Shown here one piece after another: positions 569-30,061 of a stretch of DNA of 33,128 nucleotides. How positions within the stretch are numbered: position 1 is the first letter of the stretch; each line of letters begins with the position of its first letter. The notes under the pieces were generated by a model. The model ran no database searches. It was not told the DNA's origin and worked only from the letters and a program-made list of their open reading frames with translations. The position numbers and the translations under genes are program-made. The DNA comes from a virus, in the IMG/VR virus record IMGVR_UViG_3300009183_000224, positions 1 to 33,128 of that record; one strand, given 5' to 3'.

Positions 569-889
569 ATGCCTACGCTAAACTTATCTCAAGAATTTCA
601 TGTGTTTGATAATCCAGAAACACTTATTTTAAAAAACATAGATAATACTACTGTTACGACCAGTTATGGATTTAGAAGGGCAATGACCCTTGCTTATACT
701 GATCAAAGTGGTGTAGCAAAGATTGAAAACATCACAAGGTTTTTAGTTTGGAAAGCAAACCTTGACGGATTTAAACCAATGGTGGACTGCGAAATAACTG
801 ATTCTAGTTCGGTGAAGTATTATGTCAACAGTACAGACAACTCTGGAAACAGAGAGTATTACGGACTTGATTGCACCCAACAGAGCTAA
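569..889 (+). CDS. probable head-tail connector or head completion protein
   Basis: This encodes about 106 residues beginning MPTLNLSQEF. The ATG at 569 follows AAGAGGTGTGT, and an upstream in-frame GTG at 563 falls inside the ribosome binding site, so it was not chosen. Predicted strands dominate (FHVFDNPETLILK, TTVTTSYGFRRAMTLAY, ENITRFLVWKAN), with no signal peptide or membrane helix. The stop is only 2 bases from the next start. Its size and beta-rich nature, and its place between the capsid and tail terminator genes, fit a head completion or stopper protein. I cannot match it to a named family, so the role is inferred from synteny. Confidence 0.5.
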   Translation: MPTLNLSQEFHVFDNPETLILKNIDNTTVTTSYGFRRAMTLAYTDQSGVAKIENITRFLVWKANLDGFKPMVDCEITDSSSVKYYVNSTDNSGNREYYGLDCTQQS

Positions 890-6282: not shown

Positions 6283-7548
6283 ATGCCTTCAGTACCATTT
6301 AATCAACCCCAGTTATGGACAGACGGAGATATATCAGAAAAAGTTTCTGGGACATCTCCAAATGCAACATCTATAGCATTAGAAGGTGAATCAAGAGCAT
6401 CACTTGTATACATAATAAATGGGCCAGATGAAAATTTAAAATCAGATAATCCATTAGCTTTGTTTTGCCAACAGGTTTTAGGGAAAACAGAAATAAATAC
6501 AGTAGATGGTTCTTTAAAAAGAACACCACCTATGGCTCATCCTCAATTCCGATGGTTGTATGCAGAAAGAATATCAAGCATCAAAGGAATTGGCCTTGAA
6601 AGAAAAAGCACAGGACAATTTGATTCTGGTATTTTATCGTGGGATACAACAGCATCAAACTCTTGGCAATATGTTGCACCTTACTATGTTATTTATGATA
6701 AGTATGAGGTTGTTGTTGAGTTTTCTTCAAGACCATATCTTGTTGTTAGTGATCAGGCTATCGATGATCTTAATGAAGAATCCCCAGGTGTATATAGAAT
6801 TGATGGTGCTGATGGTGATTACGCTATGGATGATGGAAGTCCAAATGCTTGCTCTGGAAATCCCATTAGAGAATACAAAAGGTATACTACATATGTTACA
6901 GAACCTTCTGCCGAATTTTTAACAATGAAGGGTGGAGCTTATAAATTTTCATCAGATGTTTCTGAAGTAAATGGTAAGACAATAGTTGGATTTTATGGAA
7001 AAACATTAGTTCCAAAAGTTGTATTTAAAATGACATGGTTTCAAGTACCATACGAATTTGTAGATCCAACCAATCACGCATCTACAAACATTTATGAAGC
7101 ACTTGGAAGAGTTAATCAGCATTATTGGTATGGGTTTGAACCTGGAGAATTGCTTTTTACTGGATTCAGTAATACTCCAAAAGTAAAAGCTCTATTTGAT
7201 TTTAATGACTATGCATCATCAGATATAGGTAAGTTGCCAGAAATGGAAGCATTGCTTTATACTGATATAATTTTAAATTTCCTTTACATACCTGTGTTTT
7301 CAACTACAACTAGTGGTAATCCTTATCCAAGTGAACCGGCTGGAATTATAAATCCAGATAATTTAAGTTACATTAATGCTGGACATAATCTAGCCATGTC
7401 GAATGTAAACAAGAAGTATTATCCTGTGATATCAGAGGATGTGGATTCCCCTACACCTCCTAATAATTTGAAGAAAAAGCCAATATACGATAGCTATCCT
7501 TTTGAATTGATATTTAACGCATTGCCGTGTAAAATGACAACTGTCTAA
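6283..7548 (+). CDS. large unrecognised tail protein downstream of the tape measure
   Basis: This encodes 421 residues with the same 18-base leader (6268-6285, AGGAGAAATAAAAATG) as the second tail tube gene, so it is probably well translated. There is no signal peptide, membrane helix or enzymatic motif. It is rich in Tyr, Trp, Pro and Asn with many short strands (for example KYEVVVEFSSRPYLVV and KVVFKMTWFQVPYEFV). The slot after the tape measure is normally filled by the distal tail protein or tail-tip components, so a tail-tip or baseplate hub role is likely. I do not recognise the family, and no lysin or peptidase motif is visible. Confidence 0.55.
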   Translation: MPSVPFNQPQLWTDGDISEKVSGTSPNATSIALEGESRASLVYIINGPDENLKSDNPLALFCQQVLGKTEINTVDGSLKRTPPMAHPQFRWLYAERISSIKGIGLERKSTGQFDSGILSWDTTASNSWQYVAPYYVIYDKYEVVVEFSSRPYLVVSDQAIDDLNEESPGVYRIDGADGDYAMDDGSPNACSGNPIREYKRYTTYVTEPSAEFLTMKGGAYKFSSDVSEVNGKTIVGFYGKTLVPKVVFKMTWFQVPYEFVDPTNHASTNIYEALGRVNQHYWYGFEPGELLFTGFSNTPKVKALFDFNDYASSDIGKLPEMEALLYTDIILNFLYIPVFSTTTSGNPYPSEPAGIINPDNLSYINAGHNLAMSNVNKKYYPVISEDVDSPTPPNNLKKKPIYDSYPFELIFNALPCKMTTV

Positions 7549-17661: not shown

Positions 17662-19131
17662 ATGGCATATATCATAGATGGTAAAGTTGATTTACATAAA
17701 ACTCATGTTTCTACAGTAGGATATAATTTATGCGATCCAGATGCAGTTGAAGCAAAAAACTTTGATGTAAATTGTTCTTTAGTTTGTTATCTTGGAGAAG
17801 CTTTTGTATCTGGTCAACTTGTATTTAATCTTTATAGGGAAGATTGCAATGGAAGTTTAATTGGAACAAGATTATTTACCCCCAATATGTTTATGATTAG
17901 TGTTGGTTGCCCAACAGATTATGATGAAGATAGCCCAAGAAATAATACATGGGTTGGTTCAATTACTACAGAAACAGCACAAGGACATAATTATGGATGG
18001 GGTGAAAATTTTGGTTATAGAATAAAAATGGATGCAACTGTAGTTGCTATATCTCCATCAGTAATAAGTGTAACAATATCAACATCAAGATTAATGCCTG
18101 ACCTTACTTGGTTTGGATGCAATAGCATATCTTTGACTTTAAAATCTGTTGGTGTTTCAACAAGCGAATCACTTTACAAATACTATGAATCTGAATTAGC
18201 AGCAACTTCATTCGATTTAGAAAATTGCGGTGGTGAAGTAAAATATGTTAAAGCATCATTAAATCTTGAAAAATATGTTTTTGGTTGTTCTGAAACTTAT
18301 GAAAGCTATGGACAAAAATGCAATCTCAGTACAAACAGGGGTGGTTTTCTTAGGCAATATTCATGCCTTGTTTGTTTAATTAAACCTAAAGATGGATTAT
18401 CTTTTACACCAAAAGTTGTTCAACTAGGTGTTAATCCTTTTGAATGCGAAAACAGTAATGATTGCAGATGTCTTCATTGGGATGGATATCGCCTTAATCC
18501 ACAAAGTCCTAGACATGACATGGATGAATCAATGGTTACTGCTGGATGTCCTAATGAAACTCCATCTTCAAATCCTCAAAAAATTCAATATGGTGGTGTA
18601 AATGAATATCGAGTTCTTTTAAAAACAATTAAAGATGGGCCAATTTGCGTAGCTGCAAGATATTTAGATGGGCCTTGGGTTATTGGAACACTTACTATTT
18701 TAAAATATTCAAATCCTTTTATTATGCAAGCAGACTTCTCTGGCCTTCTTAGTGGTAATCCAGTATTTCAATTTTATGGAATGGAGTTTCCTACATCAGT
18801 AATAGAGGACTGCCAAGTAAATCCTGTTCCAGAAGTTGTGCAATCTGTTGGTTTTGAAGAAAATTTAAAAGATCCTTTAATTGAATATCACAAAAAAGAA
18901 GATTTAGAAGAAGATGCAAAAGTTGCTAAAGCTTTAGATATGGTTAGAAAAATCCATAAAATTAAACAGAAGCCTTGTATTAACCTTGGAATGGCTTTAG
19001 AAAAAGTTGCTTCTTGTGGTTGTGGTGGTAGTGTTCTTCACGAATGCAAAATATACAAAACTTGTAGGCAATCTGGAAATGATGAAAAAGTTCAATTATG
19101 TTGGAAATGTTTTGACTATTCTGGCGAATAA
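17662..19131 (+). CDS. Cys-rich hypothetical protein with C-terminal zinc-ribbon-like end
   Basis: This encodes 489 residues starting 2 bases after the previous stop, with AGGGGCTTAACA as ribosome site. Residues 1-400 are beta-rich with many spaced Cys (CDPDAVEAKNFDVNCSLVC; CENSNDCRCLHWDGY). Residues 405-445 are a charged helix (KKEDLEEDAKVAKALDMVRK). The last 50 residues carry CGCGGSVLHECKIYKTC and CWKCFDYSGE, a treble-clef or zinc-ribbon pattern (CxCxG-x-x-x-x-x-C-x-x-x-x-x-C ... CxxC) similar to Cys-rich tails I recall from planctomycete phage proteins (C..C..Y). It may bind metal and mediate protein contacts. Family unknown. Confidence 0.55.
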   Translation: MAYIIDGKVDLHKTHVSTVGYNLCDPDAVEAKNFDVNCSLVCYLGEAFVSGQLVFNLYREDCNGSLIGTRLFTPNMFMISVGCPTDYDEDSPRNNTWVGSITTETAQGHNYGWGENFGYRIKMDATVVAISPSVISVTISTSRLMPDLTWFGCNSISLTLKSVGVSTSESLYKYYESELAATSFDLENCGGEVKYVKASLNLEKYVFGCSETYESYGQKCNLSTNRGGFLRQYSCLVCLIKPKDGLSFTPKVVQLGVNPFECENSNDCRCLHWDGYRLNPQSPRHDMDESMVTAGCPNETPSSNPQKIQYGGVNEYRVLLKTIKDGPICVAARYLDGPWVIGTLTILKYSNPFIMQADFSGLLSGNPVFQFYGMEFPTSVIEDCQVNPVPEVVQSVGFEENLKDPLIEYHKKEDLEEDAKVAKALDMVRKIHKIKQKPCINLGMALEKVASCGCGGSVLHECKIYKTCRQSGNDEKVQLCWKCFDYSGE

Positions 19132-19146
19132 TAAGGTGTACTGTTT

Positions 19147-20052
19147 ATGGCAACATTAATCCCATTTTCTTGTTTTGAAACAGATTTTTCTAATAATCTG
19201 CATAATTTAGAAACAGATGTTTTAAAGATGGCTTTATCCTCTGGCGAATATGATTATCTTGAGCAAGTTTATTTACCTATACCTCTTAATAAAACAAATT
19301 GGAACAGCACCGATTTTGTAGAACCATTTGGGAGTTATTCCTATCCAAATGGAGGATACACATTAGAAAAAGTAAAGTACTCTGTAAAAGAAGGTGTATA
19401 CAGTTTGTTTTTTAAAAACCTTACTTTTAATTGCCCAGAGCATGAGTTCTTTGGCCCTTTCAGATATCTTATAATTTACAACAGTAGTGTTAGCGACAGA
19501 TTAATTGGTTATTATGATTACACCTCGGTTGTTTCTTTAGTTTCTGGTGAAACATTTTTTGTTGATTTTGATCCTGACCAAACTGTTCCAGCAATAATGG
19601 TAGACACAATTGGAAATTCTGCACCTACCCCGACTCCAACCCCAACACCGTCACCAATTCCACCCGCTGGCATTTCATTTTTGAGCCAAACAGGAACAGG
19701 TTCTTATGCGGGAACTTATACTGGAAGCGGTCTTTATGGCATATCAAATTTAAAAGTAACTATGTTTAGTGATGGGCCTACTAACTACATGAATTTTATA
19801 TCTGGAAGCAATGGGCAACTTTATTATTACTATGAGGTTATTGACCCTGACAAAAGAGGTGCAACGGCATCTATGATGATTAATGGTTACCAACAAGGAT
19901 CAGCAAATAGAAAGACTGGTATTGTTCGTGGATCGGTAATCGTTAAAGCATATCAAAGCGTTGTTTTTAGTTTTAATGCTGGATATATACCAGAAGGTAA
20001 AGATCCAACAGCATCATCAAAATTTACCGCTTATATTTATGTTCCCGATTAG
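19147..20052 (+). CDS. two-domain protein with short Pro-Thr linker and C-terminal beta domain
   Basis: This encodes 301 residues; AAGGTGTACTGTTT precedes ATG 19147. Residues 1-158 form a domain with MATLIPFSCFETDF and many aromatic strands (FGPFRYLIIYNSSVSDRLIG). Residues 159-173 ([15 protein letters not shown]) are a rod linker, and residues 174-301 form a beta domain (FLSQTGTGSYAGTYTG, NGQLYYYYEVIDPD, ATASMMINGYQQGS, SVVFSFNAGYIP) that aligns with the terminal domain of the 11884 product. It ends the plus-strand late region; the gene on its 3' side is convergent. A likely role is a virion-bound adhesin. Confidence 0.55.
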   Translation: MATLIPFSCFETDFSNNLHNLETDVLKMALSSGEYDYLEQVYLPIPLNKTNWNSTDFVEPFGSYSYPNGGYTLEKVKYSVKEGVYSLFFKNLTFNCPEHEFFGPFRYLIIYNSSVSDRLIGYYDYTSVVSLVSGETFFVDFDPDQTVPAIMVDTIGNSAPTPTPTPTPSPIPPAGISFLSQTGTGSYAGTYTGSGLYGISNLKVTMFSDGPTNYMNFISGSNGQLYYYYEVIDPDKRGATASMMINGYQQGSANRKTGIVRGSVIVKAYQSVVFSFNAGYIPEGKDPTASSKFTAYIYVPD

Positions 20053-20061
20053 ATTTTAAAA

Positions 20062-20155
20062 TGTCCGAATGAAACCTCTCAACCTGACACAATTCTACTT
20101 CGGTTGAGATGAGTCTCAGGAAATTGTGAAAACAAGCCCTAGCTCCATTCGGACA
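20062..20155. ncRNA. candidate structured element: 10-bp stem enclosing an H-type pseudoknot
   Basis: Between convergent genes, TGTCCGAATG (20062-20071) and CATTCGGACA (20146-20155) are perfect 10-base complements. Inside, TCTCAACC (20077-20084) pairs with GGTTGAGA (20102-20109), and CACAATT (20088-20094), in that hairpin's loop, pairs with AATTGTG (20122-20128) outside it. All pairs are perfect and interleave as an H-type pseudoknot. A competing GAGA/TCTC hairpin (106-109/114-117 of the 20000s) could switch it. It does not match tRNA, hammerhead, pistol, twister or HDV patterns that I know. There is no good T-run on the plus strand; on the minus strand TTTT follows, so a bidirectional terminator is the plain alternative. 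Function unknown. Confidence 0.5.
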
Positions 20156-20178
20156 ATGTTAATATATGATCTAATTAA

Positions 20179-20997
20179 TTAACAGACAAGCCAGTTTCTT
20201 ATTTTATCGTAGTAAATGTTTTCTTTAAATTTGCTTACATCTATATTTGGAAATCTCTTCTTATCAAACAAAGTGTCTACGGAATAATGGACGATATAGT
20301 GTGAGTTTTCTAACTCGTTTATTCCCGGTACATAAAGAATGTTCATGGAGTTCATCTTTACGGAATTGTATTCGCAAGCTGCTTGCAATGCATACATACC
20401 AGCCCACCACCGTATATTTGTATCGACTTCTTTTGTCGCTATGTCTTTATGAAACCATATCCAATCCAGAAGGATCTTTTTAAATGTTTCTGCTCTTCCG
20501 ATGATGGGAACGAAGCCTCCATTATAATAGTTCGTTTTGTTCCCAGTATAATTTCCAATAATTCTTTTATTTCCTGATAAACTTTTGAGATGCCACTTTT
20601 CATATATGTCGCTAACAATCAGTTCATTTTTGCCAACAGAAAGATTTGAGTGATTTTTTAAATGGAACATATCGCAATCAAGCAGTTCTATTACATCATC
20701 ATCCTTAAACCTTGATATAGTTTGAATTAGTCCTATCTGAATGTTTAATGGAAGAAGTATTCCGTCTTCTTTTATTCCCAGATTGTAATCAAAGAATGAT
20801 TCGCAAAGTTGATTAGGAATGTCTTGATGCCAAGGAAATTGATTGATTGTTGGAGATGAAGAATGATTTCTTTTGATTATGATTGCTAATGCTTTTTGGT
20901 ATGCTTCATTTCCGTACACATCAAGATGGTTAAACCAGAATAGATCCAGTTGCCATTGGAACAACGGTGTGTTTACGGCAACTGGAACACTTATCAT
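20179..20997 (-). CDS. glycosyltransferase-like protein (DxD, GT-A type)
   Basis: This encodes 272 residues; ATG at 20997 overlaps the previous stop as ATGA. A Rossmann-like start (MISVPVAVNTPLFQWQLDLF) leads to FKDDDVIELLDCDMFHLK with the metal-binding DxD at D107-C-D109, then NYYNGGFVPIIG (158-167), a common acceptor-side motif, and VPGINELENSHYIVHYSVD with late His residues that may complete the metal site. It would transfer a sugar from a nucleotide sugar to DNA bases, a virion protein or a host surface glycan. No membrane segment. The fold family is inferred from motifs only. It is the last gene of a three-gene minus-strand unit. Confidence 0.65.
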   Translation of the reverse strand: MISVPVAVNTPLFQWQLDLFWFNHLDVYGNEAYQKALAIIIKRNHSSSPTINQFPWHQDIPNQLCESFFDYNLGIKEDGILLPLNIQIGLIQTISRFKDDDVIELLDCDMFHLKNHSNLSVGKNELIVSDIYEKWHLKSLSGNKRIIGNYTGNKTNYYNGGFVPIIGRAETFKKILLDWIWFHKDIATKEVDTNIRWWAGMYALQAACEYNSVKMNSMNILYVPGINELENSHYIVHYSVDTLFDKKRFPNIDVSKFKENIYYDKIRNWLVC

Positions 20998-21302
20998 CCT
21001 TGCATCTTCTTTTCTTCAAGCTGACCTGTGGAAATTCCTATCGACCCAGGGCGAAGCGATTTCATCAAGCCATCCGTAGGTGAACCCATGATAGCTTGGA
21101 GTTCATGTCTAGCATCACTAGCAGCATCCAGTTCTTTCTGCCACTCGGTGAACTTCATAAACAGTTCTACCGCTTTCATGTTTCCACCCCGAATTTTTCT
21201 TACTAGGCAACTCTTTACGATAGCCATATCTTCCTTGGTAATGGATTCGACATAGAATCGTTTCATTTCTTGAATGTGTCGATAGTATGGATTTAGGTAC
21301 AT
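20994..21302 (-). CDS. small hypothetical protein in minus-strand cassette
   Basis: This encodes 102 residues. ATG 21302 is chosen because GGAGGTTATA precedes it and it forms a TAATG overlap with the upstream gene; an in-frame ATG at 21314 is part of the same ribosome site. It is helical (RHIQEMKRFYVESITKEDMA, IVKSCLVRKIRGGNMKAVELF, MKFTEWQKELDAASDARHEL) with a Gly/Ser-rich acidic-basic tail. The helices resemble the C-terminal oligomerisation part of some small terminase or DUF-type phage DNA-binding proteins, but evidence is slight. Its neighbours are a basic protein and a glycosyltransferase. Confidence 0.5.
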   Translation of the reverse strand: MYLNPYYRHIQEMKRFYVESITKEDMAIVKSCLVRKIRGGNMKAVELFMKFTEWQKELDAASDARHELQAIMGSPTDGLMKSLRPGSIGISTGQLEEKKMQG

Positions 21303-21817
21303 TATAACCTCCATTTGTTTTTCTTGGCAATTCTTGCGGAAGCCCTGCCTCTGTCTCTTATGTTCTTGGGTATAGCTGTGTACATGGTTCCCCTTACTTT
21401 TCTATTTCTTACCGCATTTATACCAAGTCTACCTGACCCGCCTCTTCTGAATGGTCGAGCCTTCCTAGCAATGATTGAATAATCCTTTAAGCTAGGCGAA
21501 CCATACCAGTATATAAAGCCACCCCTCCAGTTATTTGCCACCCATTTGTTAAAGGTTGCCTTACCTACCCTTGGGTAGATGTAGCCGATATTTGGGCCTC
21601 TAGCTCGCATTACAACCGAACCTGACTGAGCCTTTGCCATAGGGAAGTATTCAAGCGATTTCATCCAAGCAGAAGGCGGTGTGTATATGATAGAATTACT
21701 GGTTGCTTCAATATCTGGGTTAGGTGCTGGATTAGTATTCGTAGCCCTGCCCACCCGCTTGGATCGGTCTTCTAAAAGTTTCTTCAGTTTTTCTATAGCA
21801 CCTACTAAATCTGCCAT
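21302..21817 (-). CDS. basic hypothetical protein, first gene of minus-strand cassette
   Basis: This encodes 171 residues, with AAGAGGAATTTCG before ATG 21817 and a sigma70-like promoter at 21856-21883. It has a short N-terminal helix (MADLVGAIEKLKKLLEDRSK), a central beta region (SVVMRARGPNIGYIYPRVGK, then WRGGFIYWYGSPS), and an Arg/Lys-rich C-terminus (RPFRRGGSGRLGINAVRNRK, ASARIAKKNKWRL), which suggests nucleic acid binding. Its stop overlaps the next gene in TAATG. I do not recognise the family. A virion core or DNA-binding role is possible. Confidence 0.5.
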   Translation of the reverse strand: MADLVGAIEKLKKLLEDRSKRVGRATNTNPAPNPDIEATSNSIIYTPPSAWMKSLEYFPMAKAQSGSVVMRARGPNIGYIYPRVGKATFNKWVANNWRGGFIYWYGSPSLKDYSIIARKARPFRRGGSGRLGINAVRNRKVRGTMYTAIPKNIRDRGRASARIAKKNKWRL

Positions 21818-22076: not shown

Positions 22077-22531
22077 TCGACTCCGATAGCTTCTATGAAA
22101 TGCTGGAAAATATCCAGAGGGGAATCGACTTTAAACTAGCAATGAAAGCTTTTGGAATCTCCAAAAGGGATCTTGAGCCTTGGCACAAGAAGGAGATGAT
22201 TAAGGCTAAAGCACAGGCTACTATAGCTATGCAACAGGTTATCCATGAACATGGGAGTGAGGACTGGCGAGCCATGCAATGGATAATTGAACGCAATAAT
22301 AAGGAACGAGATGATGAGCAAGAACTCCAAAAACTCCTCAACAAACAACTTGCAAAAGAAATGGCAAAGGGTCTTATCGAGTCCAATATTGCAGGGGAAA
22401 CTTTCGGAAATCCAAGAAGTGAAGAGGGTGAATCGGGAGAAGCAGAAGACTATAGTGATTCCGAAAAACCCAGGGGAGTATTGCGAATACCTCGGAATCT
22501 CCCTGACCCCCCAGCAGATGGAAATATTTGA
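22073..22531 (+). CDS. probable terminase small subunit
   Basis: This encodes 152 residues, ATGA overlap with the previous gene, GGGGGGAAGGAG upstream. An N-terminal helix-turn-helix-like segment (FKLAMKAFGISKRDLEPW, about residues 20-37) is followed by helices (EMIKAKAQATIAMQQVIHEH, WRAMQWIIERNNKERDDEQE, LQKLLNKQLAKEMAKGLIE), then an acidic disordered tail with GESGEAEDYSDSE. A DNA-binding head, an oligomerising helical core and an acidic tail next to the large subunit gene is the usual make-up of small terminases, which recognise the packaging site. Its last 221 bases lie inside the large subunit gene in another frame, if that gene starts at 22311. Confidence 0.6.
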   Translation: MIDSDSFYEMLENIQRGIDFKLAMKAFGISKRDLEPWHKKEMIKAKAQATIAMQQVIHEHGSEDWRAMQWIIERNNKERDDEQELQKLLNKQLAKEMAKGLIESNIAGETFGNPRSEEGESGEAEDYSDSEKPRGVLRIPRNLPDPPADGNI

Positions 22532-23867
22532 TTCCGTTGCTAATGGTGCAAGAAAAGTTCTAGTTAGATCCGCACACAATCAAGGCAAAACTTTTTTGTG
22601 TGCTGTGATTGCCTCATGGTTTCACGATCACTTTACACCATCAGAAGTTTTGATTTCAGCACCTGTTGCCCAGCAGATCAAAGATGGTGTGTTCAAAGAA
22701 TTACGCAGGGTTAGACCAAGAGATCCAAACTGGATGCCCAAGGCTAATCGTCTTGAAAAGAATCCCTCGCATTACATCCAAGGTTTAACCGCTCAGAAGG
22801 CTGATGCTTTCCAAGGTAGACATTCCGCTGGTGGTTTGTGCATCTTGTTTGACGAAGCATCTGGTATTGAACCCACCTTCTGGGAAAGAGCGGAGTCGAT
22901 GCTTTCAGCCAGCAAAGAGAATTGTTTATGGTTTTGTATTTTCAATCCATATGATGCTTCATCACCCGCCTATTTTGCTGAAAACTCTCCTGACTGGAAA
23001 GTGTTTCACCTATCCGCTCTTGACCATCCTAATGTTGCTTTTAAGGCTGATCTTGTTCCAGGTGCTATTAACTATGAGTATGTAGAGAACCGCATTAAAA
23101 ACGAATGTAGATCCGCTAGAGAAGGTGAAGAATCTGAGCCAGGGTACTTTACCTTCAATGATAAAAACTACATGGTTGAAGACCCGCTTTTTGACATTCA
23201 AGTTCTTGGAAGATACCCAAGTAAGGCGATCAACTCGGTATGGGGTGCATTGGCACTTAAACAAATCCTTGATCCAATTCCGCTCAATAAAGATTGGGTG
23301 GTTCAAATCGGTGCTGACCCTGCAAGGTTCGGTGACGATAGATCCTGTTTAGTGGTTAGGCATGGATGCTGCATCATAGATGCAAAGGAGTATCGTGGTT
23401 TGTCTACAAAAGAATTTTCGGAAAAGATTAAAGAGTATTGCCAAAAATATGAAACACCAAGGCAATCGCAATACAAAATCCCTGTGCTTATTGATGAGGG
23501 TGGTGTTGGCGGTGGTGTGGTCGATAATAAAGGTGACTATATGTTTTACGGCATTAATTCGTCTGGTGAAGCCCCAAGGTGGCGGGAGTTCCCGAACATG
23601 AGATCCGCTCTTTGGTTTGAAGCAGCGGAGCTTGCGATGGAAGGCAAAGTTTCAATTGGGCATCTTCCACTTCATATGCGTGAAAGAATGATGGAAGAGT
23701 TACGCACACCAGTATACATTGTGGATACAAACGGAAGAAGAGTGGTCGAGTCTAAGGACATGATGAAGCGAAGACTCAAGCACTCTCCTGACCTTGCAGA
23801 TGCGTTTAACCTAGCTCTGATGTCGATTCCTCGGATTGGGATCGAGAAGGTGATTGGTCATTTATAA
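22311..23867 (+). CDS. terL: terminase large subunit
   Basis: This encodes 518 residues from ATG 22311 (AAGGA at 22301-22305; a second ATG at 22314). ATPase: LGISLTPQQMEIFDSVANG adenine-side motif, Walker A VRSAHNQGKT (near 84-93), Walker B LCILFDEAS (near 176-184), coupling-type motif in LWFCIFNPYD. Nuclease: GADPARFGDD (near 334-343), VLIDEGGVGGGVVD (near 392-405) and HSPDLADAFNLAL (near 490-502), giving acidic metal-binding residues. It pumps and cuts DNA at the portal. The start is uncertain: GTG 22419, 22428 or 22455 would shorten the overlap with the small subunit. The 3' end overlaps the convergent primase gene by 62 bases. Confidence 0.9.
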   Translation: MMSKNSKNSSTNNLQKKWQRVLSSPILQGKLSEIQEVKRVNREKQKTIVIPKNPGEYCEYLGISLTPQQMEIFDSVANGARKVLVRSAHNQGKTFLCAVIASWFHDHFTPSEVLISAPVAQQIKDGVFKELRRVRPRDPNWMPKANRLEKNPSHYIQGLTAQKADAFQGRHSAGGLCILFDEASGIEPTFWERAESMLSASKENCLWFCIFNPYDASSPAYFAENSPDWKVFHLSALDHPNVAFKADLVPGAINYEYVENRIKNECRSAREGEESEPGYFTFNDKNYMVEDPLFDIQVLGRYPSKAINSVWGALALKQILDPIPLNKDWVVQIGADPARFGDDRSCLVVRHGCCIIDAKEYRGLSTKEFSEKIKEYCQKYETPRQSQYKIPVLIDEGGVGGGVVDNKGDYMFYGINSSGEAPRWREFPNMRSALWFEAAELAMEGKVSIGHLPLHMRERMMEELRTPVYIVDTNGRRVVESKDMMKRRLKHSPDLADAFNLALMSIPRIGIEKVIGHL

Positions 23868-28022: not shown

Positions 28023-28594
28023 TATACTTTCCTTCCAAATTCGCCATGAAGTTTTTTTCTGGTTTCTATAGCAATTCTGATTGCATCTTCTTTATTTTCA
28101 TATTCTCCAAACCAATTTGCTTTTCCACTTACATTTATTCTTACATTCCATTTTTTTCTTATTTTACTCCAATAAACACCTTTGCAACCAGAAGTATTTT
28201 TTTTGCTAATTTTGCTGTTATAGCAATTTTGACTTCTATTTGTTTCTCTTAAATTAATTGGATTGTTGTTTAATGAATTTCCATCAATGTGATCAACTTC
28301 TTTCCCTTTTGTAAGGTATCCGTTGTGTAAAAGAAAAACAATTCTGCTGGCCATAAATGTTTTTGATTTTCCTAAATAACTAATTGTCAAAGACCATTTT
28401 TTATATCCATCGTGATTTGTATCTTTACAACCAGCATATTTATTAGCGTATAAAGAGTTCTGTTTAATTGTTTTATTTTTTCTTTGCAACCAAATTAATC
28501 CTGATGGGCTATCAATATCTATTTTTAAAATAGACTGTATGTGTGATAAAGGGATTTCCCTTATTGATGCAATTCTTTCTTCAAAATCATTCAT
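28022..28594 (-). CDS. HNH homing endonuclease with AP2 DNA-binding domain
   Basis: This encodes 190 residues, ATG 28594 in a TGATG overlap (the GTG at 28597 is in the same frame). HNH: RIVFLLHNGYLTKGKEVDHI, then DGNSLNNNPINLRETNRSQN, with His102 and Asn114. AP2-type three-strand domain at about 136-187: GCKGVYWSKIRKKWNVRINV ... WFGEYENKEDAIRIA ... KLHGEFG. Such genes are selfish elements that cut a homing site. The DNA is markedly more AT-rich than the flanking helicase and ssDNA-binding genes, and it fits into the operon with 1-3 base overlaps on both sides, so it is a recent insertion that left neighbours intact. Confidence 0.9.
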   Translation of the reverse strand: MNDFEERIASIREIPLSHIQSILKIDIDSPSGLIWLQRKNKTIKQNSLYANKYAGCKDTNHDGYKKWSLTISYLGKSKTFMASRIVFLLHNGYLTKGKEVDHIDGNSLNNNPINLRETNRSQNCYNSKISKKNTSGCKGVYWSKIRKKWNVRINVSGKANWFGEYENKEDAIRIAIETRKKLHGEFGRKV

Positions 28595-28971
28595 CACGCT
28601 CTCCCTAGCTTGGAGTATCCAAGAATCAAATTCGTTGCCCCATAGTTATCTGTGGTTTCGCCTATTTCGACTAAGAAAGGTTTGTCTACCAGTTCTTCGG
28701 GTTTCATTACAGTAGTGATACCGCATGAAGAAGCTAGTCGAGCTAGCTTCCTTCTTGAGTCTGCTCGAAACTTCGTGTCAGTTGAAAAGATGTGAAAGTT
28801 TGCATCTAATGCTCTGCCCTGCTGTGATCCTTGCAATATCTGCATATCGCAAGCAAGGTATTTGTTTCCCGCTCTGGATGTCTTAATCTCCGCTCGCATG
28901 ATGCGAGCAGAGTAAGTTCCAGCGGGAATCGGTTTGGTTTCTTCTGGATCAAATAAAGGTTCGTCACTCAT
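28594..28971 (-). CDS. DUF669-type ssDNA-binding/annealing protein, second copy
   Basis: This encodes 125 residues. ATG 28971 follows GGAGCTTAAC; an in-frame TTG at 28983 is part of the ribosome site. OB-like beta order: PIPAGTYSARIMRAEIKTSR, GNKYLACDMQILQGSQQGR, ALDANFHIF, KLARLASSCGITTVM, then KPFLVEIGETTDNYGATNLI. This pattern (PAGxYxxxIxxAExKxxxxGxxYLxxxxxI, GRxxxxxxxI) is the DUF669 family near phage recombinases. It would coat single-stranded DNA. The 29660 gene encodes a clear relative. The order suggests it works with the Sak4-like ATPase and the RecE-like nuclease. Confidence 0.75.
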   Translation of the reverse strand: MSDEPLFDPEETKPIPAGTYSARIMRAEIKTSRAGNKYLACDMQILQGSQQGRALDANFHIFSTDTKFRADSRRKLARLASSCGITTVMKPEELVDKPFLVEIGETTDNYGATNLILGYSKLGRA

Positions 28972-28972
28972 G

Positions 28973-29449
28973 TTAAGCTCCAAATAGAGTTGGGGAATTG
29001 TCTACAAATTTCTTCCTCTTAATCGGGAAGCTGACAGGTTTGATTTTTCGTTCTTCCACCCGCTGAACAGGATCTGTCTCAATTGATTTAAGAACCCGAA
29101 TACCATTGTCATCTTCGATAATTAATCGTGATGGTGTTCTAGGAGTCCAAAGAGCTATATCAAGAGCATCTTCTAAACACTCAGGGTAATCAGACTCAAA
29201 GGTGTTTTTCCAAGATTCCTTGTTTGACCAACTGGGCGGGAAATTAAATTTTTCAACAATAGGTTCTGGATCGACTGTCCAATGATGTGCTATTAGTTGA
29301 CCATCTTCAGTAGACCAATCTGTGTCTACAACGCTAGCAATTCGTGAGCGATACATTCCCCTGCGTTCCAGAGTTTCAATAAAACTTTTTTCACCAAAAG
29401 CATTTGTAACCGCTGCCCTTAATTCAAAAATGTTAGCAATAACTTCCAT
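28973..29449 (-). CDS. hypothetical protein in replication operon
   Basis: This encodes 158 residues if started at ATG 29449, which has GGGAG at the right spacing and lies 2 bases after the lipoprotein stop; an in-frame GTG at 29458 would overlap that gene. It is soluble and acidic in the middle (EDALDIALWTPRTPSRLIIE, DDNGIRVLKSIETDPVQRVE) with an Arg/Lys-rich end (KIKPVSFPIKRKKFVDNSP). No known motif. It lies between two DUF669 genes, so a role in DNA recombination is plausible. The stop is 1 base from the next gene's start. Confidence 0.55.
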   Translation of the reverse strand: MEVIANIFELRAAVTNAFGEKSFIETLERRGMYRSRIASVVDTDWSTEDGQLIAHHWTVDPEPIVEKFNFPPSWSNKESWKNTFESDYPECLEDALDIALWTPRTPSRLIIEDDNGIRVLKSIETDPVQRVEERKIKPVSFPIKRKKFVDNSPTLFGA

Positions 29450-29659: not shown

Positions 29660-30061
29660 TTAGATAGCTTTCAAGAATTTTTCTACATTTTCATATGTAG
29701 CACCATTCTTTTCGCTATTCTTGATTTTAACTACACAGGACTGGCCAATGATGTTGGTCAGGGTCATCCGATCAAGGCCCAAGGCAGCATCAAGACTCTG
29801 CCTGAGTTTTGCGTGAATATTGCAAACCTGTGGGTTAGGATGACCATCCTTGATATACAAGGTAAAGGTTTTAAACCTCCCCTGCATATCATGTGGAGCA
29901 TCGATCTGACAACCTAAAGACAACCATTTCTTGTCATCCTTAGTGCGGACTTCCGCTCTGGTAATCGTGACTGGATATTCTCCCGCTGGAAGAATATCGG
30001 ACTTCTGAAGTTCCTTCGCTTCATCTTGTCCAAAGATTTCAAAGTCATCTGATAAGCTCAT
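29660..30061 (-). CDS. DUF669-type ssDNA-binding/annealing protein, first copy
   Basis: This encodes 133 residues, ATG 30061 with AAAGGGAAGTAGTT upstream and 2 bases from the ATPase stop. The OB-like order is DILPAGEYPVTITRAEVRTK, DDKKWLSLGCQI, GRFKTFTLYI, KLRQSLDAALGLDRMTL, then IGQSCVVKIKNSEKNGATYE. It matches the 28594 product in the PAGxY...AExR/KT, GR and (V/E)I(K/G) stretches. Two copies of this family in one operon are unusual. It probably coats ssDNA or anneals strands with the recombinase encoded upstream. Confidence 0.72.
   Translation of the reverse strand: MSLSDDFEIFGQDEAKELQKSDILPAGEYPVTITRAEVRTKDDKKWLSLGCQIDAPHDMQGRFKTFTLYIKDGHPNPQVCNIHAKLRQSLDAALGLDRMTLTNIIGQSCVVKIKNSEKNGATYENVEKFLKAI

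Follow-up and report, generated by a model that had tools for sequence, protein, structure and literature searches.

Genes and features at the locus

We examined a viral contig of 33,128 bases, called here the window, in which late and tail genes occupy the plus strand to the left of a compact RNA element. The features of the locus are collected in Table 1.

Table 1. Features of the RNA element and its surroundings; RNA motifs are written as read on the strand given
Feature	Position	Strand	Remarks
Left-hand ORF, 301 aa, late structural/adhesin-like	19147..20052	+	stop 9 nt from RNA element
RNA element, CyVA-1-like	20062..20155	minus	5' end 20155, 3' end ~20062; family-conserved block, covariation
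P1 5' strand, TGTCCGAATG	20146..20155	minus	outer pairing, 10 bp with 20062-20071; all relatives keep 9 bp, with a variable outermost pair
P2 5' strand, AGG; short hairpin-2 stem	20138..20140	minus	invariant in window family; compensatory variation in distant phages
Loop-2 motif, GUUUU	20129..20133	minus	invariant in window family; also in CyVA-1 consensus
Loop-2 side of loop-loop pairing, CACAAUU (core ACAAUU)	20122..20128	minus	covaries with 20088-20094
P2 3' strand, CCU	20118..20120	minus	pairs with 20138-20140
P3 5' strand, TCTCAACC	20102..20109	minus	8-bp pairing with 20077-20084; double changes in 7/8 pairs, all cells (100%) paired
Loop-3 motif, GAAGUAGA	20094..20101	minus	conserved; CyVA-1 consensus has GAAGGAGA
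Loop-3 side of loop-loop pairing, AAUUGUG	20088..20094	minus	covaries with 20122-20128
P3 3' strand, GGTTGAGA	20077..20084	minus	conserved CAG precedes
P1 3' strand, CATTCGGACA	20062..20071	minus	covariation
Promoter-like -10 box, TATATT	20161..20166	minus	6 nt before first P1 base paired in all relatives
Possible -35 box, TTGTCT	20184..20189	minus	17-nt spacer; within end of upstream gene; weak
Right-hand ORF, 272 aa, no function assigned	20179..20997	minus	stop 23 nt upstream of RNA
Large terminase gene	22287..23867	+	phrog_2, E 2.3e-34; 2.1 kb from element

Related contigs were gathered by means of the neighbouring proteins and the terminase, and the element was found at the equivalent locus in approximately 27 of them, with identities of 73-100%. 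Among these relatives the left-hand gene is of three unrelated kinds, which end 1-10 nt before the element or overlap it by 10-11 nt, and the right-hand gene is of two unrelated kinds, which end 11-23 nt from it; many relatives lack the 272-aa ORF and carry instead an ORF of 101-105 aa that ends 11-14 nt away. Since both flanking genes are exchanged while the RNA is unchanged, the element is the constant part of the locus, independent of both neighbours, and no appendage of one gene.

The last late gene behaves as a cassette, one variant of which (protein ending ...CMQCKDFKVSE) reads 11 nt into the RNA element. Also, 2 relatives have a 14-nt exact copy of the plus-strand start of the element (TGTCCGAATGAAAC), situated some 1.57 kb upstream of the complete one (L026:3014-3027 and L003:2332-2345); it is possible that these copies are remnants left by gene exchange. 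Elsewhere in the window, the replication block carries 2 separate genes resembling those for single-strand-DNA-binding proteins (28594-28983 and 29660-30061, minus strand).

Pairings, covariation and strand of the RNA

A first-pass annotation of this DNA had described 3 perfect pairings of 10, 8 and 7 bp that nest and cross within 20062-20155, and had judged the arrangement unlikely to arise by chance. Both statements were borne out. The outer (TGTCCGAATG/CATTCGGACA), second (TCTCAACC/GGTTGAGA) and third (CACAATT/AATTGTG) pairings are exact, and the third crosses the second. An outer 10-bp repeat around crossing 8- and 7-bp repeats occurs a single time in the window, at precisely this place, and no equivalent arrangement appeared in 150 first-order Markov sequences of window length. 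The folding energy lay below that of all 200 shuffled sequences on either strand, with z values of -5.05 for the plus strand and -3.62 for the minus strand. The pairings as originally presented are therefore all present, but the RNA is to be read from the opposite, minus strand, and a further helix, P2 (AGG/CCU), also belongs to it. In the minus-strand fold, the outer stem P1 encloses two hairpins, P2 and P3, with mutually complementary loops.

To assess covariation we used 14 distinct members of the window family, read on the minus strand over 28 pairs. We observed that 94.9% of the cells pair and that 10 of the 28 pairs are changed on both sides; none of 500 shuffles reached the observed values, and controls in which the partners were slid gave 27-56% of cells paired, as against 95% at the true register. 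Within P1, compensatory changes affect 2 pairs (C-G to U-A and G-C to A-U). The pseudoknot helix comprises 6 bp in the relatives, the seventh pair being unique to the window. When the alignment was widened to the larger family, double changes were seen in 22 of 27 pairs, with 96.3% of cells paired. The search for covariation in homologues that the first-pass annotation had proposed thus yielded compensatory changes in the approximately 27 related contigs and in distant phages as well, and the structure is conserved.

Two other candidate structures were set aside. An MFE pairing of GAG with CTC (20111-20113 with 20143-20145) was dropped, being lost in one relative (L063). Some relatives have a hammerhead-like CUGAUG...CGAAAAC in their plus strand, others CUGUCG...GCUAAAAC; the motif is not conserved in the family and lies on the wrong strand.

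The minus strand is preferred because the variable wobble pairs are G-U or U-G on that strand, which would turn into A-C mismatches if the plus strand were read; a single relative, L060, is mixed in this regard, with one change in favour of each strand. Taken together, the G-U pairs, the -10 box beside the 5' end and the homology described below point to a minus-strand RNA. A role in the stability or processing of late mRNA, which had been among the early suggestions, is disfavoured on this account, because it would require the plus strand and the wobble pairs and homology place the RNA on the minus strand.

Another early suggestion was an exotic bidirectional terminator. An ordinary bidirectional terminator between convergent genes would fit the convergent position of the element and the strength of its outer stem on both strands. 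However, no GC-rich, small-loop hairpin followed by a U-run, which was our criterion for an intrinsic terminator, was found in the interval 19000-21500 on either strand, and neither strand has a U-run of terminator strength after the element. A terminator would moreover have no need of the conserved unpaired loops in the 74-nt apical region, and homologues occur at places other than convergent junctions. We consequently find the exotic form unsupported and regard the ordinary one as highly improbable.

Relationship to CyVA-1

At gathering scores, Rfam reported nothing for the window and nothing for 10 close relatives, so that the earlier failure to fit the element to ribozyme or riboswitch patterns agrees with Rfam's own threshold, at which no known RNA is matched; a more sensitive search did reveal a link, to CyVA-1. 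With permissive E-values, CyVA-1 (RF02965) was aligned over its full length (model positions 1-77, window 20145-20069, minus strand) with 23.1 bits and E 0.0043, a score that falls short of the curated cut-off of 41.4 bits. Two relatives of the window gave 22.1 and 22.0 bits (E 4.9e-5 and 1.2e-4, respectively, in searches of their own records), and for most close relatives the Rfam CyVA-1 model reported no match. The same permissive search returned matches to mir-90, STnc300 and snoRNA models, which we judged to be chance or of the wrong kingdom.

We also built a covariance model, R1, from the window family alone; its calibration was short and its E-values are rough. R1 gave full-length matches in unrelated phage contigs, namely L318 (52.5 bits, E 2.8e-10), L241 (4e-9), L362 (3e-8), L316 (1.3e-7) and L379 (3.5e-6), and it matched the cyanobacterial locus L194 with E 3e-5. 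In the reverse direction, the Rfam CyVA-1 model scored 42-55 bits with L399, L396, L318, L262, L264, L276, L285, L241, L359 and L316. Four RNAs serve as intermediates, L318, L241, L316 and L264, all of which are matched by R1 and are CyVA-1 at or above the Rfam cut-off. From these reciprocal matches we conclude that the window element is a divergent relative of CyVA-1 in spite of its score below the cut-off.

The window RNA resembles CyVA-1 in its stem order P1-P2-P3, its comparable length and its alignment over the full model, and in the presence of GUUUU in loop 2 and of GAAGNAGA and GUCAG in loop 3. It differs in having a longer P1 (9-10 bp) and a phage context.

A loop-loop helix, and tandem pairs in cyanobacteria

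CyVA-1 has so far been an orphan Rfam family without known function, and its structure line in Rfam does not include a pairing between loops 2 and 3 (L2:L3). In a joint alignment made with a model to which the loop-loop helix was unknown, 97.5% of the cells were nevertheless paired, and 3 of the loop-loop pairs were doubly changed, one of them occurring in 4 pair types. The L2:L3 helix therefore covaries, and is a new feature to be added to the CyVA-1 structure.

Among the 14 single-copy phage elements that we tabulated, the 2 loops are complementary at 84 of 84 positions, 6 per element. The paired segments themselves vary: ACAAUU:AAUUGU, GCAAUU:AAUUGC, GCCGUU:AACGGC, ACCGUU:AACGGU, GCGGUU:AACCGC, CCGGUU:AACCGG, GCUGUU:AACAGC, ACUGUU:AACAGU and GUCGCU:AGCGAC. 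R1 found one copy in each of the 14 contigs that it matched.

The situation in cyanobacterial genomes is different. There, most strong CyVA-1 matches are accompanied by a second, weaker match some tens of bases downstream, in which a GUUUU loop and one of AGAGCG type are likewise present; Rfam models the first element only. Such tandem copies, with loop complementarity from one element to the other, are found at L176-L195 and L400-L416. We took the loop segments by a constant offset from the motifs. Watson-Crick complementarity was observed at 131 of 132 positions when loop 3 of the first element was set against the second element's loop 2, and at 113 of 132 in the reciprocal comparison (first loop 2, second loop 3), as compared with 86 of 132 for pairing within either element. 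When partners were permuted among loci, both cross pairings gave p 5e-5, the floor of the procedure, and the pairings within elements 0.20 and 0.26, values that are not strict probabilities, since the loci share ancestry. A hold-out set of 6 loci, for which 4 rows of loops were extracted automatically and the others were read off the loci by the identical positional rule, gave 0.009 and 0.003 across elements and 0.24-0.37 within them. Cross-element pairing is also backed by independent double changes at L182, L185, L190, L193, L407 and L412. From this signal, the 2 cyanobacterial elements seem to interlock.

The phage RNA thus departs from most of the cyanobacterial CyVA-1 RNAs examined, in that it is single and its loops are complementary to each other. 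A single copy with self-matching loops may form a homodimer resembling the cyanobacterial complex, or its loops may pair within the molecule. By analogy with the cyanobacterial tandem, the phage RNA may act as a homodimer; intramolecular pairing fits its sequence equally well.

Promoter-like signals and the probable transcript

Adjoining P1, the relatives of the window have TATATT, TACAAT or TATAAT as a -10 box, despite their differing upstream genes, and TTG of the -35 box is kept in most of them. The -10 position is occupied in two T4-like contigs, L241 and L316, by a box of the TATAAATA or GATAAATA type; we take these boxes to resemble T4 late promoters. Of nearby positions, 4.6% have a -10-like box equal to that of the window, and none was found beside the element in L285, L318 or L359. 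With the box missing from these 3 distant copies and the background appreciable, we treat the promoter signal as support and not as proof. The covarying structure, the homology to CyVA-1 and the conserved -10 box ending 6 nt before the 5' end agree with the early proposal of a small RNA, and an RNA of about 94 nt is probably made as a separate transcript that starts at P1 from its own promoter. Transcripts of CyVA-1 are reported from halite cyanobacteria (PMC7002113).

The element could instead be part of the 3'-untranslated region of a minus-strand mRNA, affecting stability or 3'-end formation and functioning solely as the 3' end of the upstream transcript. Such a role would accord with the closing of P1 directly before ATTTTAAAA, with the minus-strand stop codon, which in all relatives precedes P1 by only 11-23 nt, and with the CTTTTT that follows P1 in some distant copies (L316, L362, L379). 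Yet the upstream gene varies among relatives and the RNA does not, the 19000-21500 interval lacks a terminator-like site, and homologues in other phages are located upstream of gene ends or distant from them. Long conserved unpaired loops and loop-loop pairing would also be superfluous for stability, and on balance we think this explanation unlikely, if still worth serious consideration.

In L379 the CyVA-1-like element (612-707, minus strand) lies in frame within an ORF for an SNF2-like helicase, in the linker that follows the helicase domain, and has a P1 of 14 bp followed by TTTTT. From this copy inside a helicase gene it appears that the element need not be a free gene everywhere. Also, in L362, a 211-kb phage contig, the ORF immediately 3' of the element (6895-7227, minus strand) contains a short DNA polymerase A motif and is perhaps a broken or split polymerase gene.

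Distribution, and comparison with other RNAs

Besides the window family, 10 phage contigs contain RNAs of CyVA-1 grade. We sampled 146 genomes from the cyanobacterial phylum, and CyVA-1 was found in 12. A blastn search of cultured phages returned no copy of the window element or of its distant relatives. By a scan for structure plus loops we recovered 33 distinct loci, as against none in 9.7 Mb of shuffled DNA; a scan of genomes for the loop motifs gave the full hairpin in cyanobacterial matches only, and the remaining matches, mostly within coding sequence, look like chance.

The presence of CyVA-1-grade RNAs in many phages, often close to the gene for the large terminase, is a new observation. 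The distance is at most about 2.5 kb in 6 contig groups (the window, L262, L264, L285, L396 and L399), which brings to mind the pRNA of phi29. That RNA has an outer stem, a three-way junction and 2 hairpins with mutually complementary loops, through which it self-assembles. Three-way junctions and interlocking loops of pRNA are treated in PMC5340915. The likeness to the window RNA is one of architecture (outer stem, 2 hairpins, complementary loops), joined by the frequent nearness to terminase genes; in contrast to pRNA, RNAs of the window type have no sequence similarity to it, extend beyond packaging loci and are present in bacterial chromosomes. By this analogy, the element might be a packaging-related RNA that forms multimers on the packaging motor. 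However, no Rfam model of a packaging RNA was matched at gathering scores or in the permissive search, the related RNAs of cyanobacterial chromosomes are not next to packaging genes, and in the stretches that we read around the T4-like or the jumbo-phage copies, we recognised no terminase gene. Intergenic space, moreover, often clusters around terminase genes. We therefore give a pRNA-like role in packaging very little credence.

Small RNAs encoded by phages are reviewed more generally in PMC12197685. The window RNA is like these in being a short non-coding RNA on a phage; it is unlike other phage small RNAs in that its structure is kept across distant phages and cyanobacteria and in that no antisense target is indicated.

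The small size of the element, its pseudoknot and its numerous conserved unpaired bases might also suggest a compact catalytic RNA, self-cleaving or otherwise reactive, and a permuted order of the hairpins (P3 before P2) in L373, L386, L395, L398 and L397, some of which adjoin genes of LAGLIDADG type, could be cited to the same effect. Against a ribozyme are the failure of any Rfam ribozyme model to match at gathering score or at E<=10, the lack of a fixed dinucleotide recognised at any plausible cleavage site, and the pairing of the cyanobacterial loops between elements. We consider catalysis very doubtful.

Proposed mode of action

We favour, with moderate confidence, a minus-strand small structural RNA of about 94 nt that belongs to a phage branch of the CyVA-1 family, probably has its own promoter, and may act in trans by self-association. 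The RNA gene would sit in the gap between the convergent gene blocks, and its transcript would begin at P1. That stem would hold P2 and P3 such that the conserved loops (GUUUU; GAAGNAGA...CAG) expose their complementary 6-nt segments, and 2 copies of the RNA would then lock in trans through 2 L2:L3 kissing helices. We have modelled this arrangement on the covariation-supported pairing between the halves of tandem CyVA-1 in cyanobacteria, and the conserved loops of the dimer would be presented to some target, a protein or otherwise. A bolder extension, which we offer as an improbable speculation, is that phages of several lineages use a self-assembling RNA whose loops kiss between molecules to yield closed dimers or rings, serving late in infection as a scaffold, for example in packaging, and that cyanobacteria keep a domesticated tandem in which 2 diverged halves are interlocked.

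The cyanobacterial CyVA-1 tandem pairs, whose loops pair between elements and not inside one, are likewise new, and a vague motif is replaced by an architecture that can be tested, the interlocked RNA dimer. The single-copy phage versions are small RNAs amenable to transcription, folding and deletion.

RNAs with the permuted order

The loop pair was also seen in permuted order within longer RNAs, at L373:2351, L386:3601, L395:1233, L398:5616, L369:8878 and L397:1975, with the P3 hairpin first and a GGTTTTTGCCGTTTCCC-type hairpin second. Those of L373, L386 and L395 lie directly 3' of LAGLIDADG-like ORFs and are possibly intron-like or associated with homing. The antisense of the permuted RNA in L373 (2393-2491, minus strand) matched the Rfam family Bp1_684, a Burkholderia sRNA, with 23.4 bits and E 0.0037; Bp1_684 may therefore have been assigned to the wrong strand when it was described.
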